A DNA stretch of 64,000 nt from assembly GCF_002002885.1 (NCBI RefSeq), contig NZ_CP019510.1, forward strand, positions 2,666,001 to 2,730,000, written 5' to 3'. Position numbers and translations under genes: made by a program. The notes under the pieces are model-generated. The model was given only the letters and a program-made list of their open reading frames with translations. It did no database searches and was not told the DNA's origin. The DNA is from Janthinobacterium sp. LM6 (lineage in GTDB: Bacteria > Pseudomonadota > Gammaproteobacteria > Burkholderiales > Burkholderiaceae_D). Below are positions 403 to 18,584 of this stretch, one piece after another. Within the stretch, counting starts at the first letter, position 1. Each line of letters begins with the position of its first letter.

Positions 403-2702
403 GCGGCAGAACGCTGCAGCAGCACCGGCACGGACTTCGACGTGGGCGTGCCGGCGCCGTCCGCCGTGCTGGCCAGCGGCACCAGCGCGTTCGTCTCCGG
501 GTAATACGCGCCCAGGCAGCCGCGCGGGATGTCGTAGGCGACGAGGCGGAAGCCGTCGGCGCGGCGCGCCACGCCATCGTCCCAGGCGCCGATCAGGTCC
601 ACCTGGTCGCCATCGGCAAAGCCCAGCATGGCGATATCTTCCTTGTTGGCGAAGACCACCTTGCGCGTGCCGTACACGCCCCGGTAGCGGTCATCCATGC
701 CGTAGATGGTGGTGTTGTACTGGTCGTGCGAGCGGGTGCTCATCAGGACCATCAGGCGCTCGCCGTGGCGCTTGCGGGCACGGTGCAGCGGCGTATCGAG
801 GTCCAGCGGGGCGACGAGGAAGCTGGCCTTGCCGCTGGCCGTCTTCCACACGCGTTCGCGCGAAGCCACCGTCAAATGAAAGCCGCCCGGCTGCGCCACC
901 CTGGCGTTGTAGTCGTAAAAGTCGTCGAACACCTTTTCGATGTCGTCGCGGATGCGCGCATAGTCGGCCGCATACGCGCGCCAGTCCACCAGGGCGCTGC
1001 CCACCGTCGCTTCGGCCATGCCGGCCACGATGGCCACTTCCGAGCGCAGTTGCGGCGAAGCGGGCGCATTGCGGCCGTACGAGATATGCACCATGCTCAT
1101 CGAGTCTTCCACCGTCACGCCCTGCGCCACGCCGTGCTGCAAGTCGATCTCCGTGCGGCCCAGCGTGGGCAGCAGCAGGGCTTCCTTGCCGATGACGAGG
1201 TGGCTGCGATTGAGCTTGGTGGCCACCTGCACCGTCAGCGCGCACTGGCGCAGGGCGGCAAAGGTCAATGGCGTATCGGGCGTGGCGGCGGCGAAATTGC
1301 CGCCCAGCGCGATGAATACCTTGACGTCGCCGCGCCGCATGGCTTCGATGGTGGCCACCACGTCGTGGCCGTGCGCGCGCGGCGGCGCGAATCCGTACAC
1401 CTGGCCCAGGCGGTCGAGGAAGGCGTTTGTCGGCTTTTCCTCGATGCCCACCGTGCGGTCGCCCTGCACGTTCGAGTGGCCGCGCACGGGGCATAGCCCG
1501 GCGCCCGGTTTGCCGATCTGCCCGCGCAACATCATCAGGTTCGACAGCATGCGGATGGCCGCCACGCTGTGCTTGTGCTGCGTCAAGCCCATGCCCCAGG
1601 TGGCGATGATGCGCCGGCCCTTGACGAAGATGTCCGTCAATGCCTCGATCTGCGCGCGCGCCACGCCGGACTCCCGCAGCAGCAGTTCCCAGCTTTCTGC
1701 ACGCAGGTCGTCGCGGAAGGCGTCGAAGCCGCTGCAGTGTTCAACGATGAAGGCGTGGTCGATGACGGCGGGCCTGCCTGCCGCCTGCGCCGCGTCGTCG
1801 TGCTCGACGACGCGCTTGGCGACGGCCTTGATCAGGGCGAAGTCGCCGCCCAGTGTCGGCTGGACGAACAGGCCGGCCAGGCGCGTGCTGCCGAGGGTCG
1901 CCATTTCCAGCGCACTTTGCGGGTCCATGAAGCGCTGCAAGCCCCGTTCGCGCAGGGGATTGATGGAAACGATGCTGCCGCCGCGGCGCGCGCAGTCGCG
2001 CAATTCGCCCAGCATGCGCGGGTGGTTGGTGGCGGGATTCTGGCCGAAGATGAGGATGGTGTCGGCCAGTTCGAAGTCGGCCAGGGTCACCGTGCCCTTG
2101 CCGATGCCGACGGTGGCCGGCAAGCCGCGGCTGGTCGCTTCGTGGCACATGTTGGAGCAGTCGGGGAAGTTATTCGTGCCGTACAGGCGCGCCATCAGCT
2201 GGTACAGGAAGGCGGCTTCGTTGCTGGCGCGGCCCGACGTATAGAACGCAGCCTGGTTCGGGTCGGGCAGGGCGCGCAGGTGGCGCCCCACGAGGGCGCA
2301 GGCGTCTTCCCAGGCGATGGGCACGTAACGGTCGCTGGCGGCGTCGTACACCATCGGCTCCGTCAAACGGCCGTGCTGCTCGAGCGTGTAGTCCGACTGT
2401 TGCAGCAGCTGCGTGACAGTATGGCTGGCGAACAGCTCCGGGCCGGCGCGGCGGCTGGTCGCTTCGGCGGCGACGGCCTTGGCGCCGTTTTCGCAAAAGG
2501 CGAACGTGGACGCGTGGTTGCGGTCGGGCCAGGCGCAGCCGGGGCAATCGAAGCCGTCAGGCTGGTTTTGCGCCAGCAGCGCCTTTAAGTTTTCGGGTGC
2601 GACGCGCTCCTGGCGCAGGCTGATGGCCACGTGTTTCAAGGCGTCCCAGCCGGCGGCCGGCCTGGTGTAGGGCGTGATGTGCGGTGCGTCCTGGTCTTTC
2701 AT
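399..2702 (-). CDS. FdhF/YdeP-family molybdopterin oxidoreductase (formate dehydrogenase-like)
   Basis: A 767-residue member of the molybdopterin oxidoreductase family, close in length to E. coli YdeP (about 760). The N-terminus carries a cysteine cluster (CPGCAW, then FCENG) as in the FdhF-like subgroup. The cofactor region includes NFPDCSNMCHEATSRGLP and FGQNPATNHPRML, and the C-terminal dinucleotide-binding domain has MSTRSHDQYNTTIYGMDDR. The longest frame reaches 2768. I prefer the ATG at 2702 because AAAGAG lies just upstream and this start begins at the conserved region. YdeP-type proteins are linked to acid resistance in E. coli, but the substrate here cannot be read from sequence. No Fe-S or membrane partner subunit is next to it. 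Confidence 0.85.
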   Translation of the reverse strand: MKDQDAPHITPYTRPAAGWDALKHVAISLRQERVAPENLKALLAQNQPDGFDCPGCAWPDRNHASTFAFCENGAKAVAAEATSRRAGPELFASHTVTQLLQQSDYTLEQHGRLTEPMVYDAASDRYVPIAWEDACALVGRHLRALPDPNQAAFYTSGRASNEAAFLYQLMARLYGTNNFPDCSNMCHEATSRGLPATVGIGKGTVTLADFELADTILIFGQNPATNHPRMLGELRDCARRGGSIVSINPLRERGLQRFMDPQSALEMATLGSTRLAGLFVQPTLGGDFALIKAVAKRVVEHDDAAQAAGRPAVIDHAFIVEHCSGFDAFRDDLRAESWELLLRESGVARAQIEALTDIFVKGRRIIATWGMGLTQHKHSVAAIRMLSNLMMLRGQIGKPGAGLCPVRGHSNVQGDRTVGIEEKPTNAFLDRLGQVYGFAPPRAHGHDVVATIEAMRRGDVKVFIALGGNFAAATPDTPLTFAALRQCALTVQVATKLNRSHLVIGKEALLLPTLGRTEIDLQHGVAQGVTVEDSMSMVHISYGRNAPASPQLRSEVAIVAGMAEATVGSALVDWRAYAADYARIRDDIEKVFDDFYDYNARVAQPGGFHLTVASRERVWKTASGKASFLVAPLDLDTPLHRARKRHGERLMVLMSTRSHDQYNTTIYGMDDRYRGVYGTRKVVFANKEDIAMLGFADGDQVDLIGAWDDGVARRADGFRLVAYDIPRGCLGAYYPETNALVPLASTADGAGTPTSKSVPVLLQRSAA

Positions 2703-2771
2703 GGGCTCTTTCGGCTGGGCGAGTGTGGTAATTATGCACGATCCCCGCATGACATTGACTTGCGTCATGGA

Positions 2772-2791
2772 AATGACATTCGGCTGTCATT
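2772..2791. repeat. Inverted repeat between the oxidoreductase and acyltransferase promoters
   Basis: AATGACA (2772-2778) and TGTCATT (2785-2791) are perfect 7-base arms around TTCGGC. The repeat lies in the divergent gap between the genes starting at 2702 and 2848. It could be an operator or a short hairpin in the acyltransferase leader. No regulator can be assigned. Confidence 0.4.
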
Positions 2792-2847
2792 TTCCTGACA
2801 TATTAGACAAGTACGCTGGAGTCGTCTTGATCACAGGGGATGAAACC

Positions 2848-3609
2848 ATGCAGAACATAGTCGCATCAAACGAAGCCAAGGCCCGGCCGGTCCAACTGGT
2901 GCTGAGCCAGGCCACGACCGCGGCGGAATTGCGCGAAGTCCAGCGTTTGCGTTACAAGGTGTTTATCGAGACCATGGGCTTGACGTCGCTGGCGAACGCC
3001 GATGGCCTCGACAGCGATGAATTCGACGCGCACTGCGATCATCTGATCGTGCGCGACGCCGATACCCTGAAAGTGGTGGGCACCTACCGCGTGCTGAGCG
3101 CCGCCAAGGCAGCCAAGATCGGCCGCCTGTATGCGGAAAACGAGTTCGACCTGAGCCGCCTGAAGAATCTGCGCGGCCGCATGGTCGAAGCGGGCCGCGC
3201 CTGCATCCACCCGAAATACCGGGGCGGCAGCGTGATCATGCTGCTGTGGTCCGGCCTGGCCGAGTACATGCGCCGCGAGCGCTGCGACTACCTGGTCGGC
3301 TGCGCCAGCATCAGCCTGGCCGATGGCGGCCATAACGCCGTCGCCGTGTACCAGGCGCTGGCCGAAAAGCACATGGCGCCAAGCGAATACCGCGTCACGC
3401 CGCACCTGCCTTTCCCCATCCACCAGGTGGAAGCGGCGCACAAGCCGCAGGTGCCGCCGCTGATCAAGGGCTATCTGCGTTCGGGCGCCTGGATTTGCGG
3501 CGAACCGGCGTGGGATCCTGATTTCGAAAGCGCCGACATGTTCATGATGATGCCGCTGGCGAATCTGGACGAGCGCTATGCGCGCCACTACGGAGTGGTG
3601 CCTGGCTAA
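2848..3609 (+). CDS. OlsB-like N-acyltransferase (GNAT fold, hemolysin-type)
   Basis: A 253-residue protein of the GNAT-like Acetyltransf_5 family, which includes OlsB (L-ornithine N-alpha-acyltransferase, first step of ornithine lipid synthesis) and putative hemolysins. Typical segments are EVQRLRYKVFIETMG near residue 32 and VEAGRACIHPKYRGG near 112, followed by the conserved core around GCASISLADGG. The ATG at 2848 follows AGGGGA (2834-2839); a longer frame runs upstream but has no ribosome site. No OlsA partner is adjacent, so ornithine lipid synthesis is inferred from family only. Its last 68 bases overlap the 3' end of the opposite-strand CHAT gene. Confidence 0.7.
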   Translation: MQNIVASNEAKARPVQLVLSQATTAAELREVQRLRYKVFIETMGLTSLANADGLDSDEFDAHCDHLIVRDADTLKVVGTYRVLSAAKAAKIGRLYAENEFDLSRLKNLRGRMVEAGRACIHPKYRGGSVIMLLWSGLAEYMRRERCDYLVGCASISLADGGHNAVAVYQALAEKHMAPSEYRVTPHLPFPIHQVEAAHKPQVPPLIKGYLRSGAWICGEPAWDPDFESADMFMMMPLANLDERYARHYGVVPG

Positions 3610-6600
3610 GGCTATTGAGGTGAATGCCGGGCAGTGACGCCTGCAGTTGGCAGGCCAGCGCCTGCACGGCGCTGCGCAAGCCGCTCTCCGCGCTGTCGGG
3701 CGGCAGCAGTTCGAGCAGGAAGCGCAGCGGCGCCGTGATCGCCTCGGGTTCGCCGATGCTGCCGTGGCGCCGCACGGCGTCGTGGTACAGCGCCAGGAAA
3801 GCGGCGCGCGCCGGCGCGTCGAAAGGCTGGCCGTCCGGCACCTGCCACAGGGCCGCCAGCAGGGCGGCGCGCACGGGGGCGCCGGCGTCGATGGCGCGGT
3901 GTTCGTCCGCGTGGCGCTGGCGCGCATAGGCGATGGCGTCGTGCAGCAGGTCGCCCAGCTGCGGATCGAGCGCGCGCCAGGCACCGCAGTCGCCATGGGC
4001 TTTCAACAGCAGGGCGCCCGCCAGCACCTGGAAAATCAGGTCGCAGTCGGCCACGCCGCTGCGCCGCCGCGCTTCCTCCAGCGCGGCCAGGCAGGCGTCC
4101 GTCATGGCGCGCAGGGCGGGCGCGCCGGAGCTTCCTGCGCGGCAGGCCAGGCGCGCCTGCAAGGCCCAGTAGCGGCCCAGCAGGGCCAGGCGCTGCGCCG
4201 TGGGCGCCAGCGCCACCAGCAGGTCGATATGCTGTTTCCCATCCTGCAGCAACTGCCGTCCCTGCGCCATATCCGGCACGGCCGGCACTTCGATGCCGGC
4301 GCCCGCATCGAGGCCGCACAGGGCCGCGCCCTGGCGTATTTCCAGTTCCGCCCAGTGCGCCAGCGCGCGCAAGCCCACCTTGCCGTCGGCCGCGCTGTGC
4401 GCTGCCCGGTAGTGTTCGATGGCGCGCAGGGTGTTCTCCAGGCCACCGAGGCCGGCCCGCGTGGCGGCCATGTTTTCGCGGATGTCGGCGCAGCCGAAGA
4501 AGCGGGCGCGCACGGCTTCCTCGATGCTGCCCAGCTTTTCCTCGATGGCGGCGCGGCGCGCCGCATCGGCGCCCGCCAGGCGCGCGTGCAGGGTTTCCAG
4601 GTCGGCCAGCAGGTGGCCGTGATAGTGGTAATCGGGCGCTTGCCAGGGCCGGCTCTGCGTGTTCGGGAAGCGGTAGCGGTCGTCGCCATACGCCTGGTAG
4701 GCGCCCCAGGTGTTCGACGCCGGGAACTGCAGGTACGCCGCCTCGCGCGCCAGGCGCACGGCGTCGCCGAAATATTCGCCGCTCAGCATGGCGTGATAAA
4801 AGCTGTGCGCGAAGATGCTGGCCGCCTGGTCGTCGATGCGCCAGCCGGCCGCGATCACCGCCTGCGAGCCCATTTCGATGAAGGCCGTGGCCAGGCTGGC
4901 GGCCAGTTTCGACCAGGGCGCGATGGCGTCCGGGCGCATGTCGCCCAGGTGGCAGCAATTGATGAAGACGAATTGCGGCACGCGCTTCAATTTACCCACC
5001 TGCGCCGCCGTCAGCCGCGTCTTCGGCCCCAGCACCAGGCCCGTATGGGCGATGCCGGGGCCGGCCACTTCGCCGTGGCCGGCCAGGTGGATGGCGAAAT
5101 AGCGCTCGTCGAACAGGTGCACCAGCACGCGCTGCGCCTGCGGGCGCAGCAGCTCGCGCACCTGGTAGCCGTACGCGCCGAACATGCGCGCCACGTCCTG
5201 CGCCTCGGCCTGCGCGGCGGGCAGCTCGGGCAGGCCGGAATCGGTGTCGCCGATCACCAGCACGCTGTTGCTGGGCGGGCTGACGGCCGATGGCTGCTCG
5301 CGCAGGCTGGCCAGCTGGCGCACCATGCCGATGCGCGTCGACAGCGGGCTTTCCTCGCTGCCCGCCTCGTCGCGCATCAGCTCCCACGGATAGATGGCGG
5401 CGCTCTGGTCGACGGCCAGGATCAGGCCGCGCATCTCGGGGATGGCCGCCTTCAGGCCATTGGGCAGCATCAGTTCGTACAGCGCGCGCGACAGGCCCGG
5501 TTGGTCGGTGGTGTTGTCGGTGGCGTCCATGATCAGGCCATCGACGGCTTGCCGCTGGTTCGGCTCCTCGTCGACGCTGTTGTGGGCGCGGTCCGTCAGC
5601 ACGGTGAAGCGCAGGGCGCCGGACAGATCCGCGGCGACGATCTGCACGCGGCGCCAGCCATTGTCGCCGCTCAGGCTGGGCAAGATGCGCCGGTAGCCGC
5701 CGGGGCTGTGGCGGATGCGCCGCTCGAACGTGAAGCTGCCCTGGTAGCGCGCCTCGGCCATGATCTGCTCGATGGCCATGGCGGCCGCGATGGCGCGCGC
5801 CTCCGACTGTTCGTAGATGGCGATATGGCCGATGCGGCACGCCATGCCCGCGTCTTCCAGGCGCCGGTTGGCGCTGCGCGCGCCGTCGAGCAGGGCCCGC
5901 GCGCACAGGGCGATGCTCAAGCCGCCATAGCCGGAGCCGGACAGCAGGCTGGCCACGCGCAGGCCGTGCTCGCCCATCGGAGGCGCGGCCGCATGGCCGG
6001 CGGCGCGCACCTGCAGGCAGACGCACGCGTATTCGAGCAAGCCGCCGGCAAAGGCGCGCGCCAGTTCGCCCGGCGTCAGCTCGCCCAGCGCGCCCAGTCC
6101 GATGACGATGGCGCCGCCGGGCCGGCGCGCCGCATCGGGCTGCAGCACCACCAGGGCGGAGTCGGGGCGCTGCGGAAAGCGTCCCAGCGCGTGGATTTCC
6201 TGCAGCTTGCCCGCCAGCAGGCGGTCCAGGAAGCTCATGCTGCCGCGCAGCGATTCATACGCATAGCAGCCGCTCATGACGGGCGCGTCGGCCGAGGCCA
6301 TGCTGCCGTGGATGATGGATAGGCTCAGCTGCGGCGCGCGGCTCTCCGGCGCGATGGCGGGGCCGGCGGCGCCGAGGGCGGCGTCGAGCAGTTCCTGCGG
6401 CTGCGGGTACAGCGGCGTGGCGTCGGGGGCGTACGGATGGAAGCGGGGCGGGGCGCCGCCAGGCGCGTGCGGCGGGTGCCGCGGCAGGGCTGCGGCCTGG
6501 CCGCCGTCGAGCAGTTGCGCGATGGCCGGGTAGTATTCCTTTTGCAGCAGCAGGTCGCCATGCGCCACCGGCAGGTAGCAGGCCGCCACGCCGTCCGGCA

Positions 6601-9019
6601 CCGCGCCTTGCCAGGCCGTGCGGCCATCGCCATCCGGCGACCAGGCTGTCTCGATGCCGCCGTCGCGCAGGCGCAGCGCCACCGGCGTGTCGGCGCAGCC
6701 GGCCAGGTAGCTGCAATGGCGGGCGTCGGGCGGGGCCGCTTCCAGCAGGGCCACGGTGGCGCGCGCCGCGGCCAGCGCCTGGGCTTCGGGCGCCTGCCAG
6801 CCGCCGGGCAGGCCCGCCTGCGCGTCGCCGGCGGCCAGCTGCGCCCAGGCGCCGGCGTCGAAATAATCGATGCCGCCCGCCTGCGGCCACGGCAGCATGT
6901 CCAGCACGCCGGGAAAGGCGCGCACGAAGCCGAGAAACTGGCGCCGCGTGTGCTTCCAGCCTATCCAGCACGCCAGCATCTGCACCAGCCGGTCGCGCCC
7001 CAGCAGCACCTGCACCATCGCCTGCGTGCCGCGGTTGGCCGTGCCCACCTGCAGCAGGCGGCTGCCGGGCAGGGCGCCGAAGCGCTGCCAGCGGTCTTTC
7101 AGGGCCAGGCGCGCCACCAGCCCGCCCATGCCGTGGGCAATGATGCGCAAGGGCTGGCCGCGCTGTTCGGCGTCGCGCATGGCCTCGTCGAGCACGGGCA
7201 GGAAGGCGTTGCCGGAGTGCTGCAGCGACAAGCGCCAGTCATAGGCAAAGGGCCGCACTTCCTGGCTTTGCGCGAGAAAGCGGGCAAACGGTTCATAGCA
7301 GGATTCGACCCAGCCGGCGCTGACGATGTGCGGCTGGCCCACGGCCAGGCGTTCGATGCGCCCTTCGACCAGGTTGACGGGGTCGAACCAGATGCGGTTG
7401 CTGCCCACTTGCAGGTGGCTGCCCATGATGTCGGGCAGCAGCAGCACGATGGGCGCGTGCGCGCGCCGCTTCGGTACTTCGCCGCCCCGCGCCAGCGGAC
7501 CGTGCTCGATGCCGGGCAGCGGCAGGTAGGCGGTCTCGTCGCCGGTGAGCGCCTGCACGGCGGCCAGGCCGGACGGCGCGCGCTCGAAATAGTTGAGGTG
7601 GTGCGCGTGCGGCCCGCGCAGCAGCAGTTGCCGCACGGGCGTGCTGCGCGTGGCGCCGCCGGCCATCGAGGCGCAATTGACCACCAGGTCGTTCTGCCCG
7701 CCATATAGCTGGTCGTCGAGGCAGTCGCCCAGCCAGCCCAGCAGGCCATCGCCGCTGCATGCGCCGGCCAGCACATGCAGCGGGCTGGCCACGCGCACGT
7801 CGGGTGCATTGAGCAGCGCCACCAGGGGCGAGTCGGGCATCATCGCTTCCAGGCCCGGCAGGATGCGCGCGTCGCAGCGCTGCTGCACCACGGCCAGCAG
7901 GAAGGCCATGGCGCCATCGGGTAGGCCGCCGTGCAGCAGCAGGTTGAGCATCGCGCTGGCCCAGCGGTCGAGGCGGCCCGACATCAAGGTGGTGCCGCGC
8001 GCCGGACAGGCCACGCGCACGAAGCGGGCGATGCGGATGGCGCGCGTCTTCAGCTCCATGCTCAAGTCGCGCAGGCGCGCCGCATCCCCGTCGTAGCCGC
8101 CGCGTCCGCCCAGCCGCGCCTGCGCCGTGAAGTGGTCGATATCGTGGCTGTTGAACGCTTCGCCGCCCACCGTGTTTTCGCTCAGCCGCTCCAGGCCGTC
8201 GCCTGCCAGGTCGACGGCGCCGCGGCTGTCGATGCGCTGCGCCCGCGCCAGCAATTCGCCCACCAGGCCGCCGCGCGAATGGCTCAGCAGGTGCAGCACG
8301 GCGCCGTGCGGCAACTGGCGCACGAGGGCCAGCGCGTTCTCGATGGGGCTGTCGCTGAGGCTGCGGTGCTCGTAGCCATAGATGCGGTTGCCGTACTGCG
8401 CCGCCAGTTGCGGCGCCAGGCCGTTGCGCCACAGGCCGGCAAAGCTGCGCTGGGTCGACGAAGCCGTGCCGTGCAACAACAGCAGCAGCGGTTCCGGCCC
8501 GGCGGGCAGGCTGGCGACGGCCGTCATGCTGCCCGCCTCGATGCCGCAGCGGTACAGGCCCAGCCGTTGTTCCAGTTGGCGGTCCTGGAAGGCGCCCGCC
8601 GCCGCCAGCGCCGTCATGGCGGCACCGCCGCAGCGGTACACGCGCACGGCGCGCAGCATCCAGGCGCCCAGGCCGTCGCGGCTGGCGCCGGGCGGCGGAC
8701 GCGCCGCCTGTGGGCGCAAGGCCAGTCCCACTTCGATGCCGGCGGGCGCGCCGTCGCGCGCCAGCGTGGCCGGCCCCAGGTAGCGTGGCAGGTCCAGGCT
8801 GCCGGCGAGCAGCGAACTGCCGTCGCACAGCAGCAGTTGCACGACGTCGTCCGGGCCGATATCGAGGGCGATGCGGCAGCTGCCGATGCCGCGCGCGCCG
8901 GACAGCACATGGGTCTGGCTATGCCAGCCGGGCGCAGCGGGGCAGTCGCCGGCGCTGGCGAGGGGATCGCGCGTGAGCGTCAGGCGCAGCACGGGCGGCG
9001 CAAGAGGGTCGCTGGACAT
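3542..9019 (-). CDS. Giant CHAT-domain protease fused to two alpha/beta-hydrolase modules
   Basis: 1825 residues, no signal peptide or clear membrane segment, probably cytoplasmic. Module 1 (about 170-480) is lipase-like, with an HGT oxyanion-type segment at 183 and LSHSRGG with nucleophile Ser248. Module 2 (about 520-720) resembles the LCAT/lipase fold (LLLPDIMGSHL near 527), but its elbow reads AHGMGG, so Gly630 sits where Ser is expected. Residues about 950-1090 resemble the N-terminal domain of M17 aminopeptidases (IVIGLGALGELT, then SLLSGSGYGGLS). The CHAT domain (about 1190-1450) has the caspase-like dyad: IHLAGHG (His1315) and FINCCHLGD (Cys1355/1356). The last ~350 residues look helical. 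Such CHAT/hydrolase fusions are of unknown function; known CHAT proteases cleave partner proteins in stress or defence. No ribosome site is clear at the chosen ATG. Confidence 0.85.
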   Translation of the reverse strand: MSSDPLAPPVLRLTLTRDPLASAGDCPAAPGWHSQTHVLSGARGIGSCRIALDIGPDDVVQLLLCDGSSLLAGSLDLPRYLGPATLARDGAPAGIEVGLALRPQAARPPPGASRDGLGAWMLRAVRVYRCGGAAMTALAAAGAFQDRQLEQRLGLYRCGIEAGSMTAVASLPAGPEPLLLLLHGTASSTQRSFAGLWRNGLAPQLAAQYGNRIYGYEHRSLSDSPIENALALVRQLPHGAVLHLLSHSRGGLVGELLARAQRIDSRGAVDLAGDGLERLSENTVGGEAFNSHDIDHFTAQARLGGRGGYDGDAARLRDLSMELKTRAIRIARFVRVACPARGTTLMSGRLDRWASAMLNLLLHGGLPDGAMAFLLAVVQQRCDARILPGLEAMMPDSPLVALLNAPDVRVASPLHVLAGACSGDGLLGWLGDCLDDQLYGGQNDLVVNCASMAGGATRSTPVRQLLLRGPHAHHLNYFERAPSGLAAVQALTGDETAYLPLPGIEHGPLARGGEVPKRRAHAPIVLLLPDIMGSHLQVGSNRIWFDPVNLVEGRIERLAVGQPHIVSAGWVESCYEPFARFLAQSQEVRPFAYDWRLSLQHSGNAFLPVLDEAMRDAEQRGQPLRIIAHGMGGLVARLALKDRWQRFGALPGSRLLQVGTANRGTQAMVQVLLGRDRLVQMLACWIGWKHTRRQFLGFVRAFPGVLDMLPWPQAGGIDYFDAGAWAQLAAGDAQAGLPGGWQAPEAQALAAARATVALLEAAPPDARHCSYLAGCADTPVALRLRDGGIETAWSPDGDGRTAWQGAVPDGVAACYLPVAHGDLLLQKEYYPAIAQLLDGGQAAALPRHPPHAPGGAPPRFHPYAPDATPLYPQPQELLDAALGAAGPAIAPESRAPQLSLSIIHGSMASADAPVMSGCYAYESLRGSMSFLDRLLAGKLQEIHALGRFPQRPDSALVVLQPDAARRPGGAIVIGLGALGELTPGELARAFAGGLLEYACVCLQVRAAGHAAAPPMGEHGLRVASLLSGSGYGGLSIALCARALLDGARSANRRLEDAGMACRIGHIAIYEQSEARAIAAAMAIEQIMAEARYQGSFTFERRIRHSPGGYRRILPSLSGDNGWRRVQIVAADLSGALRFTVLTDRAHNSVDEEPNQRQAVDGLIMDATDNTTDQPGLSRALYELMLPNGLKAAIPEMRGLILAVDQSAAIYPWELMRDEAGSEESPLSTRIGMVRQLASLREQPSAVSPPSNSVLVIGDTDSGLPELPAAQAEAQDVARMFGAYGYQVRELLRPQAQRVLVHLFDERYFAIHLAGHGEVAGPGIAHTGLVLGPKTRLTAAQVGKLKRVPQFVFINCCHLGDMRPDAIAPWSKLAASLATAFIEMGSQAVIAAGWRIDDQAASIFAHSFYHAMLSGEYFGDAVRLAREAAYLQFPASNTWGAYQAYGDDRYRFPNTQSRPWQAPDYHYHGHLLADLETLHARLAGADAARRAAIEEKLGSIEEAVRARFFGCADIRENMAATRAGLGGLENTLRAIEHYRAAHSAADGKVGLRALAHWAELEIRQGAALCGLDAGAGIEVPAVPDMAQGRQLLQDGKQHIDLLVALAPTAQRLALLGRYWALQARLACRAGSSGAPALRAMTDACLAALEEARRRSGVADCDLIFQVLAGALLLKAHGDCGAWRALDPQLGDLLHDAIAYARQRHADEHRAIDAGAPVRAALLAALWQVPDGQPFDAPARAAFLALYHDAVRRHGSIGEPEAITAPLRFLLELLPPDSAESGLRSAVQALACQLQASLPGIHLNSLSQAPLRSGAHSARPDSPAASS

Positions 9020-9280: not shown

Positions 9281-9568
9281 TCAATGGACTGGCGTGGCGG
9301 ACAGTTCCTTCAGTTCGCGGATGGTGATGTCCGATTTTTCATGCATGCGCAATAAAATCGTTGCACCGACCGACAGTTTGCCGTGACGAATCTTGCTGAT
9401 GATGGGCGGCTGCACTTCCAGTACACGGCACAGTTCCGCATCATTTTTCAGGTTCATCTTCTCGATCAGGGTGTCGAGCAGCTTGTTGGGCACAAAACTC
9501 GATGGTTCGAGCGCACGCGCCCGGTTCATCGCTTCAATCATTTCCAGCTTCTTTTGCCGAACGTTCAT
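9281..9568 (-). CDS. Small XRE-like helix-turn-helix protein
   Basis: A 95-residue protein. The centre (about 32-75, NDAELCRVLEVQPPIISKIRHGK) has the XRE/Cro pattern: a first helix, a turn, then a recognition helix with IISKIRHG, followed by a helix ending in LLRMHEKSD. The ATG has an excellent ribosome site (AAGGAGGAG) upstream. No toxin or phage gene is next to it. It lies downstream of the ABC ATPase on the same strand, separated by 179 bases. It is most likely a DNA-binding regulator; its target is unknown. Confidence 0.75.
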   Translation of the reverse strand: MNVRQKKLEMIEAMNRARALEPSSFVPNKLLDTLIEKMNLKNDAELCRVLEVQPPIISKIRHGKLSVGATILLRMHEKSDITIRELKELSATPVH

Positions 9569-17395: not shown

Positions 17396-18584
17396 TCGTC
17401 AGTGGTGCGCTGGGCTTGTCGACAATTATGTGTTGTGCAATCCGCCCTGCAGCGTGGTGAAAGACAATATGGCGGAGAACTTGACGTCGTCGAACCTGAA
17501 GGCGGTCGACGGCGGCACGGGCCGCCAGACGGCCGCGGCGCGCCGAACAATGGCCGGCCGAGAAAATCGACCAGGCCATGAGCAGTGCCCACCATCCATT
17601 CAAGGCGCAGCAGGATATCGATGCCTATGGCGGGGGGGCGTCGGCGTAACGGGCGCGTACGACTATTGGGGCGATCATCGTCCTGCCATTGATTTTGGCA
17701 GCGACCATTTCTGGAATCCGCCTTCCATGATTTCCACCTATAGCGTGGCCAAGGGCCTGGAAGCGCAAGAGAACTGGCTGTTCCAGATACTCACCGTGGC
17801 GTTTGCGCCCATCGCCATCGTGGCCACCACCTTGATGCGCAAGCGTATCAATGCCTCGCCTGACAAGTACTGGAAAATCCCGCTGGAAGCGCCCGACCTG
17901 CCAGAGACCTTCTTTCCGCAGGCAAAGTTATTTGGCGCTATCTGCCCCAGTTTCGACATGGGATTGCATCCGCATGGCTGGAATCGCAACAAGGATGCCG
18001 CCCATCCGAAGGGCGACCCCTTCCATGGCGAGCGCGAACTGGAGATACCGCGCGGTGGCCTGCATGGCGAAAAACAACGCACCGATGCGGCGCGCGGCAA
18101 CGAGGAGAGCGAAGCGGCCCTGCAATACGAATACCACGCCTCCCTGCGCATGATGGCCAAGCGCGAAGGGAAGGTCGAGAAAGGCAAACACGTCACGGAA
18201 GAAGACCGTCCCGAGACGGCGAGCGCGCAATACACGGCATGGCGCCATCGGAAAATCCAGGCGGGACTCGCTGGAAACGTCGGCACCTATGCCACCGATC
18301 ACTCCACCATCCTGACCAACAGCGAGCATTCCAGAAAGGCGCTGGCGTATGACGTGGCCGTGGGCTGTTGCCATCTGCTGGAAACGGATTTGCGGGAGTT
18401 GAGGACGATGGCGGATTGGCGGTTTCTTTATGAGATTGAAGGTGATGAGGAGATAAAGAAATTTGACGAATATTTTACTAAAGGAAAGTTGAAAAAGAGG
18501 ACTGCCTTGGAATGGGTCGGTGAGTCCGCAGAAGGTGCAATGCCAAAAAAAATAAAGAACTCGCGTGAAAATGGCGGTCTTTAA
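17391..18584 (+). pseudogene. Tle3-like type VI lipase effector, decayed C-terminal remnant
   Basis: The longest open frame (17430-18584) starts in GLVDNYVLCNPPCSVV and GGTGRQTAAAR, which resemble the mid-region of Tle3-type T6SS phospholipases. It then loses sense until about 17655. An adjacent frame holds a short sensible stretch (AEKIDQAMSSAHHPFKAQQDIDAYGGG), so frameshifts are likely. From YDYWGDH onward it looks like a Tle3 C-terminal region: KYWKIPLEAPDLPETFFP, then NEESEAALQYEYHASLRM, then TYATDHSTILTNSEHSRKALAYDVAVG. The hydrolase core with its catalytic serine is missing. The family name rests on recalled similarity and on the Tla3-like neighbours. Confidence 0.5.

Follow-up and report, generated by a model that had tools for sequence, protein, structure and literature searches.

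We found that one minus-strand gene in a 64,000-nucleotide stretch of the Janthinobacterium sp. LM6 genome (contig NZ_CP019510.1, positions 2,666,001 to 2,730,000; hereafter the window) encodes a protein of 1825 amino acids (aa) in which a poorly defined N-terminal part is followed by an alpha/beta-hydrolase of family DUF7379 (hydrolase 1), an LPLA2/LCAT-like hydrolase (hydrolase 2), an M17_N/macro-like domain, a CHAT protease and a TPR-S-like tail. Our preferred reading, which we hold tentatively and at slightly less than an even chance, is that this protein is an effector or adaptor of a bacterial conflict pathway (anti-phage or cell-death), in which the CHAT protease and the lipase-like hydrolases would be gated together by sensor domains within one chain. 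It would best be described as a CHAT protease plus lipase under the control of a signal, with a mode of action like that of type IV Thoeris or Craspase, and is counted as a member of neither. No description of such a protein was found in the literature searched. Homologs from outside Janthinobacterium with 29-49% identity retain the domain order, which indicates that the architecture is more than chance. The gene is present once in the 6.29-Mb genome, where its product is also the only CHAT match. A preliminary description made from the DNA alone had reported this open reading frame (ORF) without giving its strand, and the frame is real.

We compared the domains of the protein and its homologs to Pfam. 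At E-values up to 0.1, DUF7379 and LCAT were matched by all 27 homologous N-terminal halves and CHAT by all 26 homologous C-terminal halves, with TPR-S in 22 and M17_N in 16 of the latter. The 1825-aa protein itself had no match in an NCBIfam scan, its single-sequence search of the PDB returned only LPLA2 (E = 0.63), and a search of phage records gave no match to the family. AlphaFold models of residues 880-1825 (mean predicted local distance difference test (pLDDT) 79.7, predicted TM-score (pTM) 0.54) and residues 1-900 (mean pLDDT 76.3, pTM 0.72) contain the hydrolase and caspase-like folds that the preliminary description had expected. Foldseek output came without aligned ranges, and the part of the model behind each match was taken from target length and sequence matches. 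Residue conservation is given as counts among 44 aligned proteins unless otherwise stated. The alignment from which the domain order was read did not include L031-L035 and L040, six nearly identical loci of Janthinobacterium, or L037, L039, L041, L060, L063 and L066, which have a frame shorter than 1500 aa.

The CHAT domain scored 98.4 bits against a curated cut-off of 24, and the model of the C-terminal half matched TPR-CHAT/Csx29, separase and SAVED-CHAT, with Csx29/TPR-CHAT on top. The preliminary description had proposed a dyad of His1315 with Cys1355 or Cys1356. The numbering of these residues, and of Ser248 in hydrolase 1, agrees with the codons, and both the His and one Cys are conserved across the aligned sequences, but Cys1355 is found in 42 of the 44 (Ala in L103, Ser in L111). 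As Cys1356 does not vary, it is most likely the catalytic nucleophile. The region after CHAT had been left unnamed and contains a TPR-S-like stretch, for which the best match among homologous C-terminal halves was 2.3e-14; the window protein's own C-terminal half had no TPR-S match in Pfam.

The serine-elbow hydrolase previously placed at Ser248 was borne out by a DUF7379 match in three stretches (103.2 bits, cut-off 33). Ser248 is conserved in 43 of 44 proteins and Asp444 and His474 in all 44; the window protein has all three, which by position and conservation would form the catalytic triad. L102 is the only row to have lost hydrolase-1 residues, the nucleophile included, so every one of the 44 rows retains at least one hydrolase nucleophile. 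The linker to hydrolase 2 contains Arg511, a possible cut site; the adjacent residues 504-510 have pLDDT below 50.

The second hydrolase of the preliminary description stands as a fold but not as a complete active site. The LCAT match of the window protein is borderline (4e-4; 20.1 bits for the whole protein and 21.3 bits for the N-terminal half, cut-off 21), and the model of the N-terminal half has the LPLA2/LCAT fold (Foldseek against 4x92: E = 1.2e-7, target TM-score (TMt) 0.59). The nucleophile position, residue 630, is Ser in 37, Gly in 6 and Ala in 1 of the 44 proteins, and Asp798 and His820 are each present in all 44. In Janthinobacterium it is Gly or Ala in all 15 rows with a readable elbow, out of 18 tried. 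A quick tree of 40 rows, with L102 and L062 on long branches, requires four changes of the Ser630 label, and counting just the well-supported branches still gives four. These changes fall on the Janthinobacterium clade, L122, L106 and L111, and are read here as separate losses. Hydrolase 2 is thus probably dead in the window protein, and its recurrent nucleophile loss makes it more likely a regulator or scaffold here than an enzyme.

The family also includes shorter arrangements. Four loci from one genus (L112-L115) encode proteins of 700-796 aa comprising the macro-like domain, CHAT and the start of the tail, each with an alpha/beta-hydrolase gene within approximately 65 bases upstream or overlapping. 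These separate hydrolases matched hydrolase 1 or 2 only at E = 0.01 to 0.12, and were named from an HSLG elbow in all four and a below-cut-off PGAP1 match in one. A fifth short version, L135, is a macro-CHAT-TPR-S protein of 936 aa between two TIR-nSTAND1-WD40 genes, with no hydrolase annotated alongside, meaning that four of the five short versions have a separate upstream hydrolase. L118 (1156 aa) and L138 are hydrolase-macro-CHAT proteins without the remaining parts, L138 adjoining SIR2-pYEATS and endonuclease genes. Two further rearrangements were observed: on a Qingshengfaniella plasmid (L137, 5839-8361) an LCAT-like hydrolase is fused to a trypsin-like protease in place of CHAT, and L117 (203-2854; 884 aa) combines hydrolase-2 and macro-like modules with the tail, most of CHAT being absent.

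These data bear on a guard or decoy explanation, under which the hydrolases would mainly be sensors that bind a lipid or a phage product, CHAT would be the sole effector and hydrolase 2 would be a pseudo-enzyme that reports binding. The retention of Asp798, His820 and the LPLA2/LCAT fold despite the four changes read as losses of Ser630 would fit this, as would the loss of the hydrolase-1 nucleophile instead in L102. However, pure sensors would not need a nucleophile, which is kept in the vast majority of proteins in both hydrolase 1 (43/44) and hydrolase 2 (37/44), and the HSLG elbow is present in all four separate hydrolases. We therefore consider this explanation unlikely.

The M17-N-like segment that had been noted previously holds at the level of the family. 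Peptidase_M17_N on the window protein is below threshold (E = 0.19; 12.1 to 16.6 bits, cut-off 23.4), and 34 of 46 separate homologous domains match it at E up to 1 (best 6.6e-7). In a profile built from the 46 domains, the first half matched the N-domain of the cytosol aminopeptidase 3jru (3.6e-7) and the second half matched the macro protein 2dx6 weakly (E = 0.03), its glycine-rich loop lining up with the one in 2dx6. Compared to macro domains by Foldseek, the model of the C-terminal half reached TMt 0.74 with 2dx6 and up to 0.70 with macroH2A, so that a macro-like fold is supported by the model. L105, L106, L108, L110 and L111 have a different loop from the glycine-rich one of the family. 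The domain may bind an ADP-ribose-type ligand. An M17 leucyl aminopeptidase was considered and rejected: no metal-peptidase catalytic domain was matched in the 1825-aa protein (Pfam, E up to 1). Stand-alone proteins of 221-223 aa corresponding to part of this domain were observed in two Janthinobacterium genomes in which the big gene was not found (loci L116, 9235-9897, and L124, 6724-7392; genomes G072 and G536).

Table 1. Window coordinates of the 1825-aa hydrolase-hydrolase-macro-like-CHAT-TPR-S-like protein and of its predicted parts and key residues.
Feature	Residues	Window position	Strand	Basis
Whole gene	1-1825	3542..9019	minus	ORF and translation, 1825 aa
N-terminal region, no named family	~45-135	8615..8887	minus	Strands in model, pLDDT 40-77 by blocks, less conserved
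Hydrolase 1 (DUF7379), alpha/beta-hydrolase	~130-495	7535..8632	minus	Pfam DUF7379, 2.3e-29
Ser248 codon, nucleophile elbow HSRGG	248	8276..8278	minus	Alignment and codon check
Arg511, linker between hydrolases, candidate processing site	511	7487..7489	minus	Arg in 37/44; linker alignment
Hydrolase 2, LPLA2/LCAT-like, probably inactive here	~515-870	6410..7477	minus	LCAT in 27/27 N-terminal halves; Foldseek
Gly630 codon (GGC) at nucleophile-Ser position	630	7130..7132	minus	Alignment and codon check
M17_N/macro-like domain, candidate ligand sensor	885-1112	5684..6367	minus	M17_N in 34/46; profile and Foldseek
CHAT protease domain	1177-1446	4682..5491	minus	Pfam CHAT (PF12770), 6.8e-28
His1315, predicted catalytic His	1315	5075..5077	minus	44/44, codon check
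Cys1356, most likely catalytic Cys	1356	4952..4954	minus	44/44, codon check
TPR-S-like helical region	~1470-1790	3650..4612	minus	TPR-S (PF20308) in 22/26 homologous C-terminal halves; helices in model

We also examined the genes linked to the family in relatives. A profile search covered 38 loci from beyond the main lineage of Janthinobacterium (27 named homolog loci and 11 full-length ones). It found a linked caspase gene in 14 (L043, L044, L045, L046, L053, L055, L057, L058, L060, L061, L069, L104, L106 and L110) and a linked TIR gene in 10 (L042, L046, L053, L054, L055, L060, L103, L104, L106 and L110), with either in 17, both in 7 and neither in 21. The caspase was the next called gene in 11 of the 14 caspase loci, betaproteobacterial and desulfobacterial records among others; it was 7.8 kb away in L046 and one or two called genes away in L104 and L044. 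In L058 it lies on the opposite strand, and in L110 it spans two reading frames. When flanking ORFs were compared all against all, a caspase gene with the motifs YSGHG and D-S/C-C-H-S-G was the commonest shared neighbour (11 of the 27 non-Janthinobacterium loci). Among 101 neighbours of 80-1250 aa within three genes of the main gene at 23 loci, leaving out the near-copies L047, L068 and L069 and L062, where no other gene was called, TIR_2 was matched 11 times and Peptidase_C14 9 times; as a baseline, the whole 6.3-Mb window genome contains two further caspase genes and a single TIR gene. Among the best 25 of the 43 families that PADLOC matched in these neighbours there were 9 caspase matches, TIR-type models and single matches to other defence models. 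TIR partners included TIR-NB-ARC-TPR (L106 and L122, convergent to the main gene in the latter), patatin-TIR (L053) and TIR-nSTAND1-WD40 (L135, beside the short version) proteins, and by eye 17 of 20 TIR rows keep an aligned Glu, which we take to be the NADase residue.

Eleven genomes were searched whole, and the caspase was linked in three of them. Apart from the CHAT protein and this linked caspase, no Peptidase_C14 gene occurs in G471 or in G036 (where the caspase is split over two frames), and in G301 the linked caspase is one of two. L045 (Desulfobacterota) and L053 (Hydrogenophilales) pair as sisters in the tree, with short branches, and each has a caspase directly upstream, which suggests that caspase and main gene moved between these lineages as a pair. 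Overall, caspase linkage is strong where present, TIR linkage is weaker and neither is universal. The preliminary description had seen no linked partner and a possible one-protein system; this holds at most for the Janthinobacterium copies and not for the family, in which 17 of 38 loci have a linked gene and most short versions a separate hydrolase.

In the mechanism that we propose, the trigger would be an NAD-derived signal, in many relatives made by the linked TIR or TIR-STAND protein, and would be read by the M17_N/macro-like domain, the TPR-S tail or both. The conserved CHAT dyad would then become active and may cut the linked caspase where there is one, other cell proteins, its own chain, or several of these. 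A self-cut at the hydrolase linker near Arg511 could free the lipase part, and hydrolase 1, judging from its conserved triad, could attack membrane lipid or another acyl ester, leading to growth stop or death. The preliminary description had suggested that the protease could release the hydrolase modules or that these could serve as its sensors. Since Janthinobacterium copies have no linked TIR or caspase gene and have lost the hydrolase-2 nucleophile, only CHAT and hydrolase 1 could be catalytic there and the trigger would be unlinked or direct. A more specific version is a three-part cascade in which a TIR or TIR-STAND signal acts through the macro-like receptor in the CHAT protein on the adjacent caspase and on the protein's own fused phospholipase, a single switch thereby setting off both the destruction of proteins and the attack on the membrane; Janthinobacterium would have been simplified to a stand-alone form with one active lipase and a pseudo-enzyme of a kind that arose repeatedly. 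We regard this version as rather doubtful; no description of such a cascade was found in the literature searched.

Several known systems share parts of this arrangement. In type IV Thoeris, a TIR protein is reported to make N7-cADPR and thereby to switch on a caspase-like protease (PMC12847820). The family shares with it a protease of the caspase type, which in some relatives has linked TIR genes, and a plausible NAD-derived signal, whereas the window gene has no adjacent TIR gene but has lipase modules and the M17_N/macro-like domain, and the family often has a second, separate caspase gene. By this comparison type IV Thoeris is the nearest mechanism, and the window protein is set apart and not counted as a member. 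A TM-macro effector of type II Thoeris is reported to read His-ADPR (PMC12847820); a macro-like fold in the effector chain is shared, but the domain here resembles M17_N and has no Macro model match. In Canu caspase-nuclease systems, and in others where a protease activates a nuclease, the protease is reported to act on an enzyme linked to it in the immune locus (PMC12799240). Protease and linked enzyme at one locus are common to both, but the candidate targets here would be lipases and a second caspase, not a metallo-beta-lactamase (MBL) nuclease. More generally, published bacterial conflict systems are reported to bring together TIR effectors, sensor proteins and proteases, caspase-like or of other kinds (PMC12799240, PMC10907252). 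Craspase/Csx29 (TPR-CHAT) is the top structural match of the C-terminal half and likewise joins CHAT to helical repeats, but in the window protein the repeats come after CHAT and lipases are fused. The CHAT part also has a weak PADLOC match (E = 3e-4) to BovA, the CHAT protein of Borvo, although only positions 508-664 of the 711-position model match. LPLA2/LCAT phospholipases share the fold and the Asp/His of hydrolase 2, but the window protein has Gly at the nucleophile position.

Several observations weigh against a signal-gated conflict protein. Scanned at E up to 1, the 46 domains matched 15 families, none of them the Macro model (PF01661), and a comparison of profiles against a very small macro alignment, made with three pieces out of two loci, gave no significant result (probability 0.12%). 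Of the 38 loci, the 21 with neither a TIR nor a caspase gene include several with little flank on one side. Among the linked loci, L057, L061 and L069 are closely related to one another and the tree places L045 near L053, so that independent cases are fewer than the counts. In the genomes searched whole, caspase genes were only elsewhere in six of the eleven (G001, G055, G079, G203, G325 and G268), G499 had only the CHAT protein's own Peptidase_C14 match and G019 had none; TIR genes were common, at 1 to 19 per genome, and linked in four (G325, G301, G471 and G036). No TIR or caspase match was found at any of the four full-length copies on plasmids (L132, L133, L134 and L136) or, by profile search, in the window and 13 Janthinobacterium loci. 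Lastly, the wide spread of the gene in Janthinobacterium and a shared ORF approximately 1.5 kb upstream, present in 8 of the 9 loci with upstream sequence, fit a gene retained for a long time better than a mobile one serving in defence.

The family was found in Proteobacteria, Desulfobacterota and Acidobacteriota and on plasmids, with the closest named homologs of the window protein in Janthinobacterium. Across the class, 23 of 321 genomes matched at E = 0.001, many in CHAT or M17_N alone, and 20 of 72,556 plasmid records matched, one over 80% of the query. Of the plasmid copies, that from Azotobacter (L132) is near type I restriction-modification genes. The two Paracoccus copies have a protein of approximately 1090 aa directly upstream (L133, 5343-8627; L136, 4372-7617), a possible partner. 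Within Janthinobacterium 31 of 40 genomes matched at all and 24 have near full-length copies, with three cut by contig ends; remnants were found in G541, G525 and G526. The copies, 68-96% identical, stay near full length, and five rows have one or two stops inside the region that matched. L122 is a distant copy with 33% identity from one genome placed in the same genus.

This distribution can be set against a housekeeping or stress role, in which the protein would be a separase-like or HetF-like protease with lipid turnover and the TIR and caspase linkage would reflect general clustering in islands. Such a role would be in keeping with separase among the Foldseek matches, the genus-wide retention, the ordinary neighbours in the window and the 21 unlinked loci. 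It would not easily account for a caspase gene standing next in line at 11 of the 38 loci, with betaproteobacterial and desulfobacterial records among them, for the patchy occurrence across the class and on plasmids, or for the remnants within the genus, and we likewise judge it improbable. That the Janthinobacterium gene is a decaying relic, an immune protein minus its partners and one active site, is very unlikely: it would agree with the missing TIR and caspase matches, with Gly or Ala at position 630 in every readable row and with the remnants in three genomes, but the long open frame, the intact hydrolase-1 triad and CHAT dyad and the near full-length copies, stops in five rows aside, argue against it.

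The window neighbours include a GNAT/FeeM-like gene, an ABC ATPase, a chemotaxis receptor and leuA by Pfam, and going by the Pfam names also ergothioneine-type genes. A convergent gene (2674-3609, plus strand) matches GNAT Acetyltransf_5 (2.1e-36) and weakly FeeM N-acyl amino acid synthase, and the two genes overlap at their ends. A 95-aa ORF upstream of the big gene and in the same orientation (9281-9568, minus strand) is helix-turn-helix-like by eye and has no Pfam match. A scan for promoters and terminators gave nothing telling. Further away, an ORF (17430-18584, plus strand) matches the C-terminal domain of the Tle3 antibacterial effector (E = 4.4e-8) and is followed by a 455-aa ORF with no Pfam match; the pair is probably a locus for an antibacterial lipase linked to secretion.

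Bacterial immune pathways usually end in a caspase-like protease, in TIR signalling or in a lipase that attacks the membrane, each on its own. The conserved family described here has a protease, lipases and a likely receptor in one protein and in many hosts lies beside caspase and TIR genes; if the preferred reading of a jointly gated protease and lipase is true, it would join these endings in one switch and provide a compact bacterial example of a death programme run by protease and lipase. The repeated loss of one lipase nucleophile is also a natural experiment on the change from enzyme to regulator.

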